A stretch of 64,000 nt of DNA, from the NCBI RefSeq assembly GCF_000230735.2, contig NC_019962.1:2914001-2978000 (forward strand), read 5' to 3'. Both the position numbers and the translations under genes were made by a program. Positions 18,253-30,104 of the stretch are shown piece after piece (the stretch's first letter is position 1; every line of letters begins with the position of its first letter). This DNA is from Natrinema pellirubrum DSM 15624. GTDB lineage: Archaea; Halobacteriota; Halobacteria; Halobacteriales; Natrialbaceae. Below the pieces are notes generated by a model, which was not told the origin of the DNA, did no database searches, and saw only the letters and a list, made by a program, of their open reading frames with translations.

Positions 18253-18702
18253 TCAGCCGACCCCGAATGCGGTCTCCATGAGAAACGACAGCAACAGCAC
18301 CAGGAGACTGCCGAGCAGGAGTTTCCCCGGCGGCGTGAGTCGCTTTTCCGGCGGCGGCAGTTGGATCCACCGAAGCGGCGGCAGCGACCGGACGAGCGAC
18401 TGAAACCGCGTCGAATCGTGGGCAACCGGTATCGCTCCGGCGACGCCACGGTTCGATGGCGGTCCCACGTCGTCGGGAGACGTCGGCCACAGCCGGACCG
18501 TCGCGTACGCGAGGAGGAGCCATCCGGCGACGAACAGCAGGGCCTTCGCACGGACGACTCCGCCACCGGTCGCGACGCCGATGATCAGGGCACCGATACC
18601 GGTGAGTGCCGCGACGGCGATCGCGTACGTCATCGCGTCCAGTCCGACGCGCCCGAACACCCGGAGTCGGTCACCGAACCCGTCGCTCGGTGGCATCGTC
18701 AC
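18253..18702 (-). CDS. Haloarchaeal membrane protein of the DUF7555 type (149 aa)
   Basis: The protein has two hydrophobic segments near the N-terminus ([20 protein letters not shown] and [20 protein letters not shown]) and one at the C-terminus ([20 protein letters not shown]). A proline-rich loop containing [18 protein letters not shown] lies between. It resembles the haloarchaeal DUF7555 family (from memory). A GTG at 18702 overlaps the dppF stop by 3 bases; an ATG two codons in (18696) is an alternative. The coupling suggests co-translation with the transporter. Confidence 0.72.
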
Positions 18703-20051
18703 CCGTGGCGGTTCTCGATGACGGCATCCGGAGATCGATACTCGTCGGTGTGCCGGTGACAGTAGCTCTGGTGGCCGCCATCGCCCATGTCGTGATACGC
18801 CGGCGGTTCGTCGTCACAGACGCTGCCAAACGCCTCGTTGAAGACGGCGATCGCCTCGCTCTCGTTGTGGTCTCGAGCGAGAGTCGCGATTTCGTCCAGC
18901 ACCGACTGAACGCGCGCGGGCACCTCCAGGTCCCCGAACAGTTCGTCGTAGGTCTCCTCGACCGTCCCGAAGCGCGTGTCTTTCCCGACTGCCGCGCGGA
19001 GTCGATCGCGAACCGAGCGGTCCGCGCGCTGGCGCTCGCTGAGCAGTTCACGAAGCGTATTGAGTCGATTCCAGAGTTCGTCGTCGAGGTCCTGATACTC
19101 CGCCGGACGGATTCGTGCCGGACAGCGCGTACTGAACGGGCAGCCGGCGGGCGGGTACCGCGGGTTCGGCGGCGTCCCGTGGAGCGTGATTCGGTCGCGT
19201 TCGACTGTCGGATCTGGCTCCGGAATCGCCGACAGCAACGCGTGCGTATACGGATTCGACGGATCGGTGAACAGTTCCTCGGTCGGCCCGATCTCCATGA
19301 CGTTCCCGAGATACATCACTGCGACCCGGTCACAGAGGTGGTGGACGACGGAGAGGTCGTGTGCGATAAACAGGTAGGTCAGCCCGAACTCGTCTTGGAG
19401 GTCCTCGAGCAGGTTGATGATTTCGGCCTGCACGGAGACGTCGAGCGCCGAGACCGGTTCGTCGAGGACGACGAAGTCCGGCTCGAGCGCCAAGGTACGG
19501 GCGATACTGATCCGCTGGCGCTGGCCGCCGGAGAACTGGTGGGGATAGCGGTAGTAGTGTTCGCGCTGGAGACCGACGGTATCGAGCAACTCTTTGACGC
19601 GCTGGCGTCGCGCTTGCGGCGTCTCCCACTCGTGAACGTCCAGCGGTTCACGGACGATTTCGCCGATCGTCATTCGGTCGTTGAGGCTCGATTCGGGGTC
19701 CTGAAACACCATCTGGGCGTTTCGTCGCCACTCGTGGAGGTCGTCGCCCTCGAGGGTCGTGATATCGACGCCGTCGAACCGGACCTCGCCGTCGGTCGCG
19801 TCCTCGAGTTGCAGGAGCGTTCGCCCCAGCGTCGTCTTGCCACAGCCGGACTCGCCGACGAGGCCGAGCGTCTCGCCACGGTGAATATCGAACGAGACAC
19901 CGTCGACGGCCTTGACGGGCGTTCCACCGAGGAGGCCGCCGTCCTCGTAGTAGGTCTTTAGCCCCTCGACTTCGATCATCACGTCGCCGTCGCTGTCGGT
20001 CGGTACGTCGGTCTCGGTCGCTATCGGCTCCTGGCTCAGTTCGTGACTCAT
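18699..20051 (-). CDS. dppF: Dipeptide/oligopeptide ABC transporter ATP-binding protein, DppF type
   Basis: The 450-residue protein has Walker A (GESGCGKTT), signature ([15 protein letters not shown]), Walker B ([14 protein letters not shown]), and a C-terminal oligopeptide-transporter domain with CPFSTRC. About 100 extra residues are inserted between that Cys cluster and the closing [15 protein letters not shown]...YCH part, so the protein is longer than the usual ~330 aa. The insertion is helical and charged. The start is the ATG at 20051, which overlaps the dppD stop by 4 bp. It works with DppD to energise DppBC. Confidence 0.92.
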
Positions 20052-21385
20052 TCGGTATCGCCTCCGGTCCGTCTCGCGTTTCGTCGTCGATGCTGGTCGA
20101 CCGCCTTGTCCGTCGAACGGTCGCCGGGACAGAGCAAGCACGCCGCGGTGTGATCGTCGGTCCCCTCCTCGACCGGGACCGGAACGGGATGAACGGCGTC
20201 ACACTCGTCGAACGCCTTCGGACACCGCGGTGCGAACCGACAGGATGTCGCCGGTTCGTTCGGCGTCGGAACGTTCCCTTCGATCGTCTGGAGCCGGTCA
20301 CCGGATTGTTGTCCCGGAATCGACTCGAGCAGGCCGCGCGTGTACGGATGCCTCGGATCCGAGAACAGCTCGTTCACGCCGGCCGTTTCGACGATTTCTC
20401 CGGCGTACATGACGTTTACTCGATCGGAGATCTCCGCGATCACACCCATGTCGTGGGTGATGAACATCATCGAGAGATCCCGTTCCGCCTGTAGATCGGC
20501 GAGCAGGTCGAGGATCTGGGCCTGAATCGTCACGTCGAGTGCCGTCGTCGGCTCGTCGCAGATCAGCAACTCCGGCTCGCAGGCAAGCGCCATCGCGATC
20601 ACGGCTCGCTGACGCATCCCGCCGGAGAACTGGTGTGGATACTCGTTGACGCGGCGACGAGCGTCGGGGATGCCGACGGCCTCGAGCAGATCGATCGCTT
20701 CCTGCGTCGCCGCTTCGCCCCGCAGTCCCTGGTGGAGCCGGACGGACTCCTTGATCTGGTTTCCGACCGTGTAGACGGGGTTGAGACTCGTCAGCGGGTC
20801 CTGGAACACCATCGCGATCCGTCCACCGCGCATGCGTCGCCGCGGTTCGCCGCTGAGACGCGTGATCTCGACGAATCCGTCGGCGATCTCCGTCGGCGTC
20901 TCTGGACTTCCGTCGGTGACGAACACGCAGTCGTCCTCGTCGACGAGACCGAGTTCGTCGCCGTAGCCGGCGGCGACGACGTCCGCAAGCGGCACGTCAC
21001 TGGCCCTCTCGCAGCCGAACGCCGCCGGCGTGATATCGATCGTCTCGCGGTCGAACAGGGCAACCGGGTCGTAGTCGGCCGCCACCGTCTCGAGGTCGAC
21101 GGTACGACCCGGGAACTCCGAGGCGTACTCTCGAACCGTCTCGAGGTGGTTGAAGCGGACGCTACTGCCCTGAAGGGTCCGTCCCGGCGAGTCGACGAGT
21201 CCCATGATCGACCGGGCGGTTACGCTCTTGCCCGATCCGCTCTCGCCGACGATGCCGACGGTTTCGCCCCGTTGGATGTCGAACGAGACCCCGTCGACCG
21301 CTCGGATAGTCTCCTTGTCGGTGAAAAACGCCGTCTGGAGGTTCCGAACGTCGAGGATCGGCTTGGCTTCCGTCTCCGCCGACAT
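20048..21385 (-). CDS. dppD: Dipeptide/oligopeptide ABC transporter ATP-binding protein, DppD type
   Basis: The 445-residue protein has Walker A (GESGSGKSV), signature ([15 protein letters not shown]) and Walker B ([13 protein letters not shown]). Compared with bacterial DppD (~330 aa), about 85 residues are inserted (roughly 75-160) between the start of the helical domain and the Q-loop [14 protein letters not shown]. The C-terminal domain has the Cys motif [14 protein letters not shown]. It starts at a TAATG overlap with dppC. The insertion has no recognised motif and may be common in haloarchaeal DppD. Confidence 0.92.
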
Positions 21386-23118
21386 TATCCACCACCTCCA
21401 GCTGCTGCAGTACCGGTGTCGTCTGTCCCGCCGGTATCCGCCTCCGGATCGATCGCGTCTCGGAGGCCATCACCCAGTGCGTTGAAGGCGGTGACCACGA
21501 GGACGATCATCAGCCCCGGGATGGTCGCAACGTGCCACGACGACGTACCGACGAACGATCGCCCGTCACTGACGAGTCGTCCCCATTCGGGGGTCGACCC
21601 TTCGATGCCCAGGCCGAGGAACGAGAGCGCGGCCGTGGAGATGATGATCCCACCGAGCAGGAGAGAGCCGTAGATCATTATATACCCTGCAATGTACGGG
21701 GCCATGTGTTTACGCATTGTGTTGACCGGTGACTGTCCGTAGCTCCGTGCGGCGTCGACCCACTCCTCCTCGGCGACCTGTAACGACGGGCCGCGGATCG
21801 TCCGCCACATCCCCGGCCAGTAGACGAACGCGAAGATCAGCCCGAGGAGGACTCCGCCGTTGAGCGGTTCCGCGATCGGGTGATTCCCCTGGTTGAAGAT
21901 GACAGATAACATCATCACGAGCAGAAATGCCGGGATCGAGATGATCGTGTCGCTCGCGATCACTGTCAGGACGTCGACGAGTCCCTTGTAGTAGGCGGTC
22001 AGCATCGACATCGTGACTGCGATCAGTCCGCCGAGGCCGATCGCGAGCAGCCCGATCACCAGTGACGTCTGCGCGCCGTAGGCTATATGGGTAAGCAAGT
22101 TTTGTCCCGATGATGTCGTCCCCAGCGGTGCCCAGCGGTCGTAATCGTCGTAACTCATCGGACCGATGGTGTTTTGTCCGTTCGATTGGCTGTTGAGGTT
22201 CGCCTGTCCGGGCGTGGTCGTCGCGACTTCGCCGTCGTCGGTGAGATACTCGACCTCGTACTCGTAGGGAGAGGCGATGTTCTGGTCTGCCGTGGTGGGA
22301 CTGATGGCCGGTGCCCACAACGCCGTGACAATGAACATGAGTACGACGATCAGGCCGAACTGTCCCCAGTAGTGGGATCGGAATCGACCGAGCGTGTCGT
22401 CACGCGGCGTCCAGTCCGCCTGCCGGTAGTGTTCCCGAAAGATCGTATACCCTTTCCAGGTCCAGACGATCACGGCAAGCGCGTAGCCGTAGACGAGCAA
22501 CGTACGAATCCCCCACGCCACTGCCGGTGAGAGACCGAGGAACGTTCCGTCCCAGCCACCGCCGGGCGTTCTGTGGCCCTGATTGGAGATGACTTCGCGG
22601 CTCGTGAGCGTCGGAAGCGACGACAGGGTGTTGAACACGCCGTCGATCGCGCCGTCGACGAGTCCGCCGACCGGCGTGAACGCGAGCAAAACCGCGATCG
22701 TGGCCAGGACGGCGGTCAGGACGGCCCGCTCGAGGAAGCGGACGATGCGATCGCTCAGACCGACATCGAACCGGTCCGTGGCGGACCAGGACGTGAACCT
22801 GGTGACGAGAACGGAGAGTCCGAACAGCAAGAGCAGCGTGATCGCGTCGCTGACGAAGTAGCTAACTATCGGAACGGTCGCCTCGCCGACCGAGTCGCCG
22901 ATCCAACTTGGCAGCAGCCCCACCAGGCCGATGACGTACTTGACTGCCCCCACGAGCTGGTAGGCCCAGCCCATGAATCGGCCGAACTCGAGGGCGACCA
23001 ATACAGCGGTGCCAAGCAACCAGAACCGCGCCGGGTCGGGATTGTCGGCGACGCGTTTACGGAGGGGCCTCGATTCGTCTGTCGTCTCGTTCGGTTCGAA
23101 GGATGTACTCATACTCAT
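21385..23118 (-). CDS. dppC: Dipeptide/oligopeptide ABC transporter permease, DppC type, N-terminally extended
   Basis: At 577 residues this is nearly twice the usual DppC length. The C-terminal ~250 residues are the standard permease domain with the EEWVDAARSYGQSPVNTMRK coupling loop. The first ~320 residues carry several additional hydrophobic segments, interrupted by polar loops. Two ATGs (23118 and 23112) are possible; the first overlaps the dppB stop by 4 bp. It ends with a Gly-rich tail (GTAAAGGGG). It forms the channel with DppB. Confidence 0.9.
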   Translation of the reverse strand: MSMSTSFEPNETTDESRPLRKRVADNPDPARFWLLGTAVLVALEFGRFMGWAYQLVGAVKYVIGLVGLLPSWIGDSVGEATVPIVSYFVSDAITLLLLFGLSVLVTRFTSWSATDRFDVGLSDRIVRFLERAVLTAVLATIAVLLAFTPVGGLVDGAIDGVFNTLSSLPTLTSREVISNQGHRTPGGGWDGTFLGLSPAVAWGIRTLLVYGYALAVIVWTWKGYTIFREHYRQADWTPRDDTLGRFRSHYWGQFGLIVVLMFIVTALWAPAISPTTADQNIASPYEYEVEYLTDDGEVATTTPGQANLNSQSNGQNTIGPMSYDDYDRWAPLGTTSSGQNLLTHIAYGAQTSLVIGLLAIGLGGLIAVTMSMLTAYYKGLVDVLTVIASDTIISIPAFLLVMMLSVIFNQGNHPIAEPLNGGVLLGLIFAFVYWPGMWRTIRGPSLQVAEEEWVDAARSYGQSPVNTMRKHMAPYIAGYIMIYGSLLLGGIIISTAALSFLGLGIEGSTPEWGRLVSDGRSFVGTSSWHVATIPGLMIVLVVTAFNALGDGLRDAIDPEADTGGTDDTGTAAAGGGG

Positions 23119-24143
23119 CGTTCGTACCCCACTCGTGGATCGATGATCGTGTACAGGAGGTCCTGGAAGATGTTCAACAGGATGATGACCAGCGTGAAGA
23201 TAAACAGTAACGCCCCGGCAAGCGGCAGGTCTCCCTGGAGCGTCGCCTGGAAGAAGATCTTCCCGAGACCGTTGATGTTGAAGATATACTCGACGATGAC
23301 CGAGCCACCGATCAACAGGAACGCCTCGTTCGTGATGACGGGCACCAGCGGAATCAATGCGTTTCTGAAGACGTGTTTCCAGATGATGGCGCGGTCCGTC
23401 AAGCCCTTCGCTTTGGCCGTCTCGACGTAGTTCGAGTTGATCGTCTCGAGGATGGCGGTCCGTCCGATACGGAGTTCCGCGGCCATCGAAGCCGATCCGA
23501 GGACCAGCGCCGGCGGAAGGATGAGTTTGATATCACTAGCGATCGTCCCCCAGTCGATACCGGCCGCCGTAACGAACGTCAGATCGGGCGTTCCCGTGAT
23601 GCTCCTGATATCCGGGCCGAACGTGTACCAATCGAACCCGAACCAGCCGCCCTGTTTGGTCTTGCGAAGGACGGCGAGGAGGATGATGCTCAGCCAGAAG
23701 TTCGGCATCGCCTGCCAGAGGATACCGCTCACGGAGGCGACGTAGTCGCCCCCGCTGTTGGGCCGCAGCCCGGCGTAGAACCCGAGCGGGATACCGATGA
23801 ACAGCGGGAGCAGGATCGCCCAGAACCCCAGCCAGAGCGTCGGCGGACCCGCAAACGAAATGACTCGAGTCACTTCCATGTCGCCGTAAATGACCCAGGA
23901 CTGACCCAGATCGAGGGTCAGGAAGTTCGTCACGAAGTCAAGGTACTGTTCCCAGAGCGGGTCGTTGAGTCCGAGCCGTTCGCGCATTCGCGCGGCCTCG
24001 GCTCCCGACGCCTCGGGGCCGAGTCGAGCGGCCACGGGGTCGATCGGTCCCATCCGTAATAGTGCGAATATGAACGTCATTACGAGAAAGAGGACCGGCA
24101 CGGAGAGCAGGAGCCGCTTGAAGAAGTATCTCCACCGACTCAT
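23115..24143 (-). CDS. dppB: Dipeptide/oligopeptide ABC transporter permease, DppB type
   Basis: The 342-residue permease has the family N-terminus (RYFFKRLLLSVPVLFLVMTF), the LGLNDPLWEQYLDFVTNFL segment and the coupling loop NYVETAKAKGLTDRAIIWKH. It ends with LYTIIDPRVGYER, typical of DppB. It starts 140 bp after the binding-protein gene, a gap that may allow different expression of the binding protein and permease. It overlaps dppC by 4 bp. Confidence 0.93.
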   Translation of the reverse strand: MSRWRYFFKRLLLSVPVLFLVMTFIFALLRMGPIDPVAARLGPEASGAEAARMRERLGLNDPLWEQYLDFVTNFLTLDLGQSWVIYGDMEVTRVISFAGPPTLWLGFWAILLPLFIGIPLGFYAGLRPNSGGDYVASVSGILWQAMPNFWLSIILLAVLRKTKQGGWFGFDWYTFGPDIRSITGTPDLTFVTAAGIDWGTIASDIKLILPPALVLGSASMAAELRIGRTAILETINSNYVETAKAKGLTDRAIIWKHVFRNALIPLVPVITNEAFLLIGGSVIVEYIFNINGLGKIFFQATLQGDLPLAGALLFIFTLVIILLNIFQDLLYTIIDPRVGYER

Positions 24144-24283: not shown

Positions 24284-26104
24284 TTAGGACTCGTCTTCGA
24301 GGTTCGCCTGCCAGTCGAGGTAGTAGCCGGTCGCTTCGTTCGGCATCTTCGACGTATCGGTGTTCTTCGGCTCGAAGCTGAAGTGGCCGTACGCGACGTC
24401 CGGCCAACTCCAGATCCAGCCGAGCGAGTACATCTCGAGATCGCCGTCCTCACCGCGGTCCTGGAGCGTCGAGAACTCCGTCGCCTTGGTCTTGAGGTCG
24501 ATGCCGATCCCGGAGAGCCTGCGTTTGATCTCGTCGGCCATGTCCTGGAACGTCGGACTGGACTTGTAGACGGTCGCTTCCATCTCGAACGGATCGTCTT
24601 CGGTGAAGCCGGCCTCCTCGAGGAGGTCTTTCGCTTCGCTGCGTTGCATGTCGTTGACGCCGTAGGGCCACTCGTCTTTCCAGTCCTGATAGCCGTCCGC
24701 TCCGGTCGGCCACATCGTCGGCGGCGTGAAGCTGAACGCCTCGAAGCCGCGGTTCTGGAGGATATCGTTGACGAACTCCTCGTGGTTCACGACGTGCGCG
24801 ACTGCCTTTCGAACGGGTGCGGGGACGTTCGTGACGTTGAACGCGAAATAGTACGTGCCGAGTTCGGGGACCGCGAGGTAGTTCGTGGTCTCGCCGTTCT
24901 CGAACTCCCCGTACGTACCGAACTCCCGGTTGTTGTCGTCGGTCTCGGCGTCGATGAGGCCGGGATCGTAGTACGAGGTCGGAATCTCGAAGAAGTCGGC
25001 GTTTTTCTCCATCGCGTAGGTGAACTTCGATTCTGGGTCCTCGTTGATCTCCCAGTGGACGGATTCGACGCTCGCGACGGTCCCGTAGAAGTTGTCGTTG
25101 CGGACGAGCCGAACGTCTTCTCCGGGGTTGAACTCGTCGAACTCGAACGGCCCGGTCCCGTTGGCCATCTCGGTACGGAACTCGTCGTGGCTGACCTCGC
25201 CGTCATAGCCCTCAATGTCGCCGACGAGACCCTCCGGAACGACGGCGAATCCGGTGTGCGTGAGGACGTCCAGTACGGCCGGATTCGGCTCTTGAAGGGT
25301 GACCTCGAACGTGAGGTCGTCGACGATGTCGATCGCCAACGAGTCAGGAGCCACACCGCCGTCGTCGGTCGTCTCGTGTACGATACCGAGACCGCTCGTC
25401 GAGCTGGTAACGAAGTTCGATCGTTCGCTGTACTCGGATTCGGCGAGCCGGCGGAACGAGTACTTGACGTCGTCGGCGGTTAGGTCCCGTCCGTCGTGGA
25501 ACTGGACGCCGTCTTTGAGCGTGAACGTCCACGTCAGCCCGTCGTCGGACGTCTCGAAGGAATCGAGCAGCTGATTCTCGACCTCGGCGACGCCGGCCGG
25601 GTAGTTGGTCAGCGTATCGTAGAGCTGGACGATGACCTCGCCGGACGCGGTGTCCGTCGACATGATCGGGTCCAGCTCGTCGAAGGAAGCGTTGATCAGG
25701 TTCAGTTCCGAATCACCCTCGACTTTCGTCCGGTTGTGTTTCACGTGGTGGCGGCCGAGGGCACCGAGCCGGGGAAGCTCGACGTTGTCGTACCAGAAGA
25801 ATTCACCCTTGCTGTGGTACATCGGGAGCAAGACCATGTCGTCCCGGACGGCCTCCTCGATCTCGATGTACGCCTGAGTACGCGTTTCTTCCGCGTCGGG
25901 GCCCGGGTTGTTCACGATGCGCTCCCAGGCCTCCTGTGCTTTCTCAGCGTGTTCTGTCGTCTCGTAGTCGGTTTCCTCGTCTTCCTCGTCGTCGCTGAGG
26001 AGGGCCGAACACCCAGCCAGTCCGACCGATGCACTGCCACCGAGGAGAGCAAGCATTTGTCGTCGCGATCGATCTACAGTTGATGCATCCGGTATGTCGG
26101 CCAT
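24284..26104 (-). CDS. dppA: Family 5 solute-binding lipoprotein, apparently circularly permuted
   Basis: The 606-residue lipoprotein has a Tat-like signal (R14-R15) and lipobox (LAGC, Cys32). The core from about residue 133 on (DELDPIMSTDTASG, LTWTFTLKDGVQFHDGRDLT, NGTGPFEFDEFNPGED) is a family 5 peptide-binding protein. Residues ~50-128 (AWERIVNNPGPDAEETRTQA, MVLLPMYHSKGEFFWYDNVE, LGALGRHHVKHNRTKVE) look like the segment that normally closes the protein. The C-terminus stops at YYLDWQANLEDES, where that segment would be expected. This suggests circular permutation. The start at 26104 is chosen for its TATA box 27 nt upstream. It is the first gene of the dpp operon. Confidence 0.9.
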   Translation of the reverse strand: MADIPDASTVDRSRRQMLALLGGSASVGLAGCSALLSDDEEDEETDYETTEHAEKAQEAWERIVNNPGPDAEETRTQAYIEIEEAVRDDMVLLPMYHSKGEFFWYDNVELPRLGALGRHHVKHNRTKVEGDSELNLINASFDELDPIMSTDTASGEVIVQLYDTLTNYPAGVAEVENQLLDSFETSDDGLTWTFTLKDGVQFHDGRDLTADDVKYSFRRLAESEYSERSNFVTSSTSGLGIVHETTDDGGVAPDSLAIDIVDDLTFEVTLQEPNPAVLDVLTHTGFAVVPEGLVGDIEGYDGEVSHDEFRTEMANGTGPFEFDEFNPGEDVRLVRNDNFYGTVASVESVHWEINEDPESKFTYAMEKNADFFEIPTSYYDPGLIDAETDDNNREFGTYGEFENGETTNYLAVPELGTYYFAFNVTNVPAPVRKAVAHVVNHEEFVNDILQNRGFEAFSFTPPTMWPTGADGYQDWKDEWPYGVNDMQRSEAKDLLEEAGFTEDDPFEMEATVYKSSPTFQDMADEIKRRLSGIGIDLKTKATEFSTLQDRGEDGDLEMYSLGWIWSWPDVAYGHFSFEPKNTDTSKMPNEATGYYLDWQANLEDES

Positions 26105-29035: not shown

Positions 29036-30104
29036 GAGGGTGTCATAGAACTCTTGTCACACCGTGATGATCGTGCTTCCCGGATTATCTCCTCGTTCGT
29101 AGTTGGTGATCGCAATAACGAGACGCAGACACAACGACAGGAACACTTGTGCTCGTGCATGGACGCGGCCTCGGGCGTGGACGTGCCCGAGGCCGCAGTC
29201 CTTGACTGCGTCGTTAGTTCGTTCGACGCCTGTCCGGCAGTTGTACGTCTCATCTAACGTCGATTGCTTCAACTTCACGTCCTTGCTGTGTTCTTTGATA
29301 CGGTCTTCGACCCTGTACTCTATGTCCAGTGGATCGTCGGTGTTGCGTGCGTTGTACGGGGCGATTGGCACGACTCCTGCGGTCAGCAGGTAGTCGTGCC
29401 AATCGAGTGTGTCATAGGCGCTGTCTCCAAGCATCCAGATCGGAGTGTCGACGGCGAGCGCGTCACGCGTGACGCGCATCGCCGTCTCTTCTGGCGCTTG
29501 TTTGCTCTCGGTGAATTCCGCTGCAATCGGGATCTTTGAACCAGTCGAAACGATCGTGCAGCCGTAGCCGTAGTAGTACTCTTCAGCCGTTGGATCGTAG
29601 CATTTCGACGCGTCTTGATCGGCTGGCATCGTTCTCACGTCTGTCGAATCAATCGAGTAGGTCAAGTCGAGCAGGCCCCGCAAGGCGGCCTGCTCGACGA
29701 GGTGGTCGAAAATCTCGTCGATGACGTGTTCGAGATCGGTGAGGAAACGATCGACCGCGTCTCTCGACGGCGGTCGATCGAAGCCACAGCTGAGCCAGAC
29801 GACTGTGTTGTTCAGTTCTCGCGCAACCGGACGAATGCCGTAGATATCCTTGTAGTAGCAGTGCAGAAACCCACGCATCATCTCGGGTGGTTCGTGGTCT
29901 CGTGTTCGCCCCGTCTCCGCCGGGGCGAACACGTCGAATTCTTCGAGAAACTCGAAGGAGAGATGCTCGAACAGCGCTAGCGTCTCCGTCTCCACGGCAT
30001 TGAAGAACGTCTCTACCGTAGGATTATCTTGCAGGGTCGCTGGGCTCATACCACCTCAGCGTTCACCCTGCTCTCTGGTATGAGAACTGTTCTATGACAC
30101 CCTC
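29036..30104 (-). mobile_element. Complete IS5-like insertion sequence (1069 bp)
   Basis: Both ends carry the perfect 16-bp inverted repeat GAGGGTGTCATAGAAC (29036-29051; complement at 30089-30104). It is flanked by the 9-bp direct repeat GACTGTGAT. The transposase occupies almost the whole element. The intact frame, perfect ends and perfect duplication suggest recent transposition. The right end is 23 bp from the start codon of the pilin-like gene at 30128. Confidence 0.93.
29057..30049 (-). CDS. IS5-like DDE transposase
   Basis: The 330-residue frame is intact. The DDE residues are likely in LTYSIDSTDVR, WMLGDSAYDTLD and CRTGVERTNDAVKD; the last resembles the Y-(2)-R-(3)-E-(6)-K motif of IS4/IS5 families. 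The N-terminus has a helical dimer/DNA-binding region with MMRGFLHCYYKDIYGIRPVA. Codon and base use are less GC-rich than in the neighbours. Exact subgroup is not assigned. Confidence 0.9.
   Translation of the reverse strand: MSPATLQDNPTVETFFNAVETETLALFEHLSFEFLEEFDVFAPAETGRTRDHEPPEMMRGFLHCYYKDIYGIRPVARELNNTVVWLSCGFDRPPSRDAVDRFLTDLEHVIDEIFDHLVEQAALRGLLDLTYSIDSTDVRTMPADQDASKCYDPTAEEYYYGYGCTIVSTGSKIPIAAEFTESKQAPEETAMRVTRDALAVDTPIWMLGDSAYDTLDWHDYLLTAGVVPIAPYNARNTDDPLDIEYRVEDRIKEHSKDVKLKQSTLDETYNCRTGVERTNDAVKDCGLGHVHARGRVHARAQVFLSLCLRLVIAITNYERGDNPGSTIITV

Follow-up and report, generated by a model that had tools for sequence, protein, structure and literature searches.

In this study we show that the first gene of a dppBCDF operon in Natrinema pellirubrum DSM 15624 encodes a substrate-binding protein (SBP) whose parts stand in circularly permuted order. 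The gene lies within a stretch of 64,000 nucleotides of contig NC_019962.1; "the window" means this whole stretch, and feature positions are counted from its first letter. A preliminary description of the sequence had proposed such a permutation, and its account of the sequence proved accurate in all checkable details. The proposal itself is supported: both parts of the window protein are homologous to one canonical protein, their order is swapped, nothing is duplicated and a closed fold is predicted. As the best explanation we propose, with a probability of about 0.88, that the protein is the working, membrane-tethered SBP of a Dpp-type importer and has been circularly permuted; its function is inferred, and there are no ligand, expression or transport data. 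Going beyond the preliminary description, we found two other permutations in PF00496 proteins and recurrent changes at one seam, and permuted SBPs are common in archaea.

Architecture and predicted fold of the window protein

The gene and its operon comprise the following features.

24284..26104, minus strand: permuted substrate-binding lipoprotein gene, whole; one open reading frame of 606 aa plus stop, ATG start at MADIPDAS
26009..26104, minus strand: Tat-type lipoprotein signal SRRQMLALLGGSASVGLAGC with lipobox LAGC, Cys at residue 32 (read from the sequence)
25958..26008, minus strand: acidic linker from the lipobox Cys to the first module, residues 33-49 (homolog junction comparison and AlphaFold)
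25718..25957, minus strand: module C, the canonical C-terminal segment, now N-terminal, residues 50-129 (matches the C-terminus of unpermuted homologs)
25712..25720, minus strand: VEGDSELNL joint, native C-terminus fused to native N-terminus (junctions compared across homologs)
24680..25714, minus strand: module B1, the canonical N-terminal part, residues 131-475 (mapped with the HMM module and by BLAST)
24311..24676, minus strand: module B2, the canonical middle part ending GYYLDW, residues 477-598 (HMM modules, junction comparison)
23115..24143, minus strand: DppB-like permease, next gene after the SBP (PF00528, PF19300)
21385..23118, minus strand: DppC-like permease with a long N-terminal extension, 577 aa (PF00528 at 368-559, PF12911)
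20048..21385, minus strand: DppD-like ATPase (PF00005, PF08352)
18699..20051, minus strand: DppF-like ATPase (PF00005, PF08352; start placed by eye at MSHELSQE)

The usual C-terminal segment does sit near the N-terminus, as had been claimed. Residues 50-129 of the window protein match the C-terminus of normal-order homologs with E-values down to 2.8e-17, the value reached with residues 589-668 of the unpermuted homolog L011 (42.5% identity), while residues 121-584 of L011 correspond to window residues 131-598 at 52% identity. The same swapped matching was seen with three further normal-order homologs (L012, L013 and L016). At the other end, module B2 is followed by eight residues and the stop, forming a new C-terminus (seam 1), and the protein indeed terminates at YYLDWQANLEDES, exactly where its relatives begin the moved segment. 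The PF00496 (SBP_bac_5) match (E 1.5e-68; 232 bits against a curated cut-off of 32.4) stops 34 residues short of the stop, so that no space is left for a normal C-terminal segment. The halves had been said to join almost seamlessly; the breaks fall between the GYYLDW strand and the KAQxAWxxxxxNP helix with zero residues lost, and the short stretch VEGDSELNL bridges the native C-terminus and the native N-terminus. Searched by itself as a profile, the moved segment gave only a weak match in the PDB (2wok, E 0.041), at the expected C-terminus of a family-5 SBP.

At window positions 24350-24420 (residues ~560-570, LGWIWSWPD), the alignment places GWIWSW of the window clade opposite GWTGD of DppA, and most normal-order relatives have ADW there. 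In DppA, D436 (precursor numbering) of GWTGD binds the peptide amino group, and the replacement suggests a different ligand for the window clade, as far as can be told from the alignment. The feature tracks clade and not chain order, since the normal-order L011 also has WSW.

The SBP gene heads an intact operon with all genes on the same strand. A reading frame resembling IS4/IS5-type transposases (by eye) lies about 3 kb upstream of it, at 29057-30049. For the DppC extension, the spacing of neighbouring genes suggests similar DppC sizes in operons with other SBP orders too.

The mature window protein was modelled by AlphaFold2 from an alignment with 73 relatives. The model is a single confident fold (pLDDT 93, pTM 0.90); the moved segment forms helix-helix-strand-strand at pLDDT 90-98, and the first 16 mature residues have pLDDT < 50. 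Foldseek returned OppA, DppE, MppA, DppA and NikA as the nearest solved folds (E down to 3.5e-27), the top matches all being of the OppA/DppA/NikA type with its bilobed three-domain fold. The sequential TM-score against solved SBPs was ~0.6. This score depends on chain order, and no permutation-aware superposition was made; such a value is expected with one part out of order and does not prove closure. That the window chain closes into the same bilobed fold as canonical SBPs is therefore predicted by the model, not measured.

Chain orders across the family

For classification, the family sequences were divided into three modules, C, B1 and B2, and each protein was assigned an order from its HMM matches, in two rounds. 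Among 140 full-length members, 48 have the window order C-B1-B2, 87 the normal order B1-B2-C and 5 a second permuted order, B2-C-B1. Homologs bearing the segment at both ends would have spoken against a permutation; by HMM order, module C occurs twice in none of the 140 (0/140). The suggested search of haloarchaeal genomes for the same domain order thus yielded 47 further natural proteins. Close family members occur in 225 of the 392 genomes of the order searched, and the carriers of the permuted order include isolates and complete chromosomes, the frames being intact. A homolog in Natrinema thermotolerans is 86% identical to the window protein, and other named relatives come from Natronococcus, Halopiger, Halorubrum, Halovenus and Saliphagus. 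Could the arrangement be an artefact, caused by mis-assembly or a wrongly placed start, or could the N-terminal part be an unrelated domain? We consider this ruled out for practical purposes by the 48 distinct proteins of the same order, some from complete chromosomes, together with the single open frame, the signal directly upstream and the confident fold. The gene dppB adjoins the SBP gene downstream at 45/48 loci of the window type, 5/5 of the second type and 60/87 of normal order; chain order has hence changed inside an otherwise constant operon.

The second type, nine proteins once members from four more genomes were added (L176, L170, L171, L167, L021 and L206-L209), groups as one clade with good support, surrounded by normal-order proteins. 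Its hosts include Halosimplex pelagicum (complete chromosome), Halapricum hydrolyticum and Halonotius pteroides. An AlphaFold model of L021 reached pLDDT 86 and pTM 0.84; Foldseek aligned only ~290 columns of it.

A third seam is present in the genome of N. pellirubrum itself, where four of the seven PF00496 proteins are permuted: the window protein and the following three (genome coordinates).

G000:C1:1907147-1908073: L195, third-seam permutant (PF00496)
G000:C1:2680503-2681543: L196, third-seam permutant (PF00496)
G000:C1:2683324-2684283: L197, third-seam permutant (PF00496)

In all three, the match to PF00496 positions 1 to ~285 runs up to the C-terminus. Residues 62-137 of L196 match PF00496 284-360 (E 6.8e-5) and its residues 271-617 match 1-284; the genes for L196 and L197 are near neighbours with the same orientation. 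Taken alone, the first 186 residues of L195 have no Pfam match, and a dedicated profile of the C-terminal part (CT) finds them with E 1.3e-12. Scanning with this profile and one of the N-terminal part (NT), both built from 33 normal-order haloarchaeal SBPs, we found CT ahead of NT at 93 examined loci of other subfamilies, some of them repeats of the same gene (~90 archaeal proteins), most of the CT matches having E-values in the range 1e-6 to 1e-22. Seven normal-order SBPs used as controls had NT before CT with the same profiles. The third type also occurs outside the haloarchaeal order in the same phylum (L367, L368, L369 and L370 of family f21; CT E-values 1e-22 to 1e-28, NT 1e-61 to 1e-78). 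On a tree of NT alone, 33 of 35 type-3 representatives fall into one clade, with weak deep branches. A type-3 profile aligns with solved SBPs as two separate pieces, of which the main piece places profile positions 175-521 on the N-terminus of the chain (1xoc, E 6.3e-89); among the best 60 PDB sequences listed there is no single full-length match, so none of these has this order. A further frame of 880 aa (L211, G042:C3:12065-19447) is a normal-order SBP extended, judging by eye, by a pair of cupredoxin-like domains and by a hydrophobic segment at the C-terminus.

Repeated order change and its possible causes

For the SBP tree, modules were put into a common order before alignment. The normal-order proteins L068, L070 and L079/L083 are nested within the permuted group, and a tree that keeps the permuted proteins monophyletic is rejected (p-AU 0.0003). 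The tree of the neighbouring DppB, an independent marker, has the same nesting and rejects monophyly too (p-AU 0.017). For L068 and L070, the best match of the C segment is a permuted C segment (75% and 69% identity), and the DppB protein has its best or nearly best match in a permuted operon (84% and 79%). As SBP body, C segment and permease agree, the order has changed at least three times at the window seam. These tests depend on models and sampling, and not all deep forks are supported. A recombination placing the C segment of a normal-order paralog onto a permuted body was ruled out for L068 and L070 by the same C-segment identities. In the DppB tree, the basal branch of the operon group with permuted SBPs is long (0.34, support 100/100), hinting at fast permease change around that time.

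The direction of these changes, reversal or repeated gain, remains unresolved. We regard it as an even call whether the permutation arose once, long ago, and was then reversed at least two or three times, or was gained several times independently. The place of L068 and L070 inside permuted clades for both SBP and DppB, with C segments nearest to permuted ones, would suit reversals, and a hand count on these trees finds one gain and about three reversals cheaper than about six gains. However, L068 and L070 have a W-x-x-x-D-S joint that agrees in length and letters with the ancestral normal joint, as if these genes had never been rearranged, and some of the deep forks concerned lack support. As for the molecular route, the permutations probably arose by in-frame tandem duplication followed by trimming. 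A tandem intermediate is expected in permutation by duplication, for which saposin/swaposin and DNA methyltransferases are examples (PMC3320104). In another family of the phylum we found a head-to-tail double SBP that matches this intermediate, a frame of 1026 aa from position 840 of its locus (L371, G503:C18:9470-14894) with the order NT-CT-NT-CT. Cut-and-paste of the 80-residue segment, i.e. segmental transposition of independent origin without whole-gene duplication, seems unlikely to us. It could explain why the same seam was reused and why no doubled intermediate was found in the subfamily of the window protein; this lack, and that of relic C or B2 segments in flanking DNA, where none were found, counts against the duplication route; yet the double SBP and the adjacent paralogs L196/L197 indicate that duplication is common in the superfamily.

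What the new order does to the membrane anchor can be inferred by alignment to DppA, which places the window seam at about chain residue 436 and that of type 2 at about 320. In AliD, lobe 1 consists of domain I (29-63, 191-296, 583-617) and domain II, and lobe 2 of domain III (297-582) (PMC11192437). Both seams thus fall in the domain III region, and the lipid anchor would have moved from lobe 1 to lobe 2; the re-anchoring that had been suggested for the window protein is plausible on this inference. Its twin-Arg signal and lipobox, hallmarks of haloarchaeal Tat lipoproteins, predict lipid attachment and a membrane location. Both elements precede the first module in 45 of the 48 C-B1-B2 homologs; a signal peptide and lipobox do so in all three orders, with similar linker lengths (medians 32, 35 and 30 residues). 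We propose that the native termini, neighbours in domain I, were fused through the short joint and that new ends were created in domain III (lobe 2) by a cut that separates the GYYLDW strand from the next helix. Signal peptide, lipobox and acidic tether would have been retained at the new start, and the bilobed fold may have been kept with its anchor on lobe 2 instead of lobe 1.

Such a change might be tolerated because a flexible tether largely uncouples the fold from its anchor, which would account for several seams and repeated order changes; with a long flexible tether, the choice of anchor point could be nearly neutral. Alternatively, the permuted order might be adaptive, the tether on lobe 2 orienting or tuning the docking on DppB/DppC and having been fixed by selection. 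Permease contacts involve both lobes: the DppB scoop motif sits in the DppA cleft (PMC12136057), and AmiC and AmiD make contact with lobe 1 as well as lobe 2 (PMC11192437). Conservation of the permuted form across many genera, the common placement of the window and type-2 seams in lobe 2 and the long DppB branch could all be cited for selection, and the authors of the work on TpMglB-2 raised membrane anchoring as a possible reason for the permutation of their protein (PMC4990184). The normal-order orthologous operons nested inside the permuted group and the similar linkers of the three orders suggest near-neutrality instead, and we lean against an adaptive order without excluding it. A wider idea, to which we give slightly less than even odds, is that SBP chain order is a reversible evolutionary switch in archaea, with the normal order as the starting point, three seams in lobe 2, a flip back at one of them inside orthologous operons and nearly interchangeable anchoring lobes.

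Comparison with known systems

In the open-access literature we found no report of permuted haloarchaeal, cluster C or oligopeptide-binding SBPs. New here are the topology of the window protein, the recurrence of order changes at a single seam and the spread of further seams. As a rule, a natural circular permutation is a single, ancient event; here, close orthologs in the same operon position occur in both orders, and together with the further seams they provide natural replicates. These amount to a natural experiment that asks if it matters in which order the parts of a protein follow each other and where the protein is tied to the membrane. They may help to answer how permutations arise, whether they are reversible and whether the tether point of a lipoprotein SBP affects transport. 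Annotation based on PF00496 hides such chains, as the four of seven in this genome illustrate.

The window protein is homologous over both segments to the cluster C, or family 5, SBPs (DppA, OppA, AppA, NikA; PF00496) and shares with them the predicted bilobed fold and the operon with DppB, DppC, DppD and DppF; binding of peptides or other solutes is inferred from family, fold and operon, without binding data. It differs in its order, C-B1-B2 instead of B1-B2-C, and in its predicted anchor on lobe 2 instead of lobe 1, and is thus a topological variant of cluster C. The closest precedent belongs to another SBP class: TpMglB-2 (Tp0684) of Treponema, a natural circularly permuted glucose-binding lipoprotein of Type I/cluster B (PMC4990184). 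Both are natural circular permutations of an ABC substrate-binding lipoprotein. TpMglB-2 is bacterial, of a different fold class and permuted at another seam; the portion of its report available to us does not describe repeated switching at one seam, and the tether-point question rested there on one protein. The window protein is not of the TpMglB-2-like Type Ic/cluster Bc, its closest folds and sequences being those of cluster C. With saposin/swaposin and the DNA methyltransferases (PMC3320104) the SBPs share the outcome and the proposed route, and the tandem double SBP fits the predicted intermediate; they differ in having at least three seams in one superfamily and repeated change within orthologous operons.
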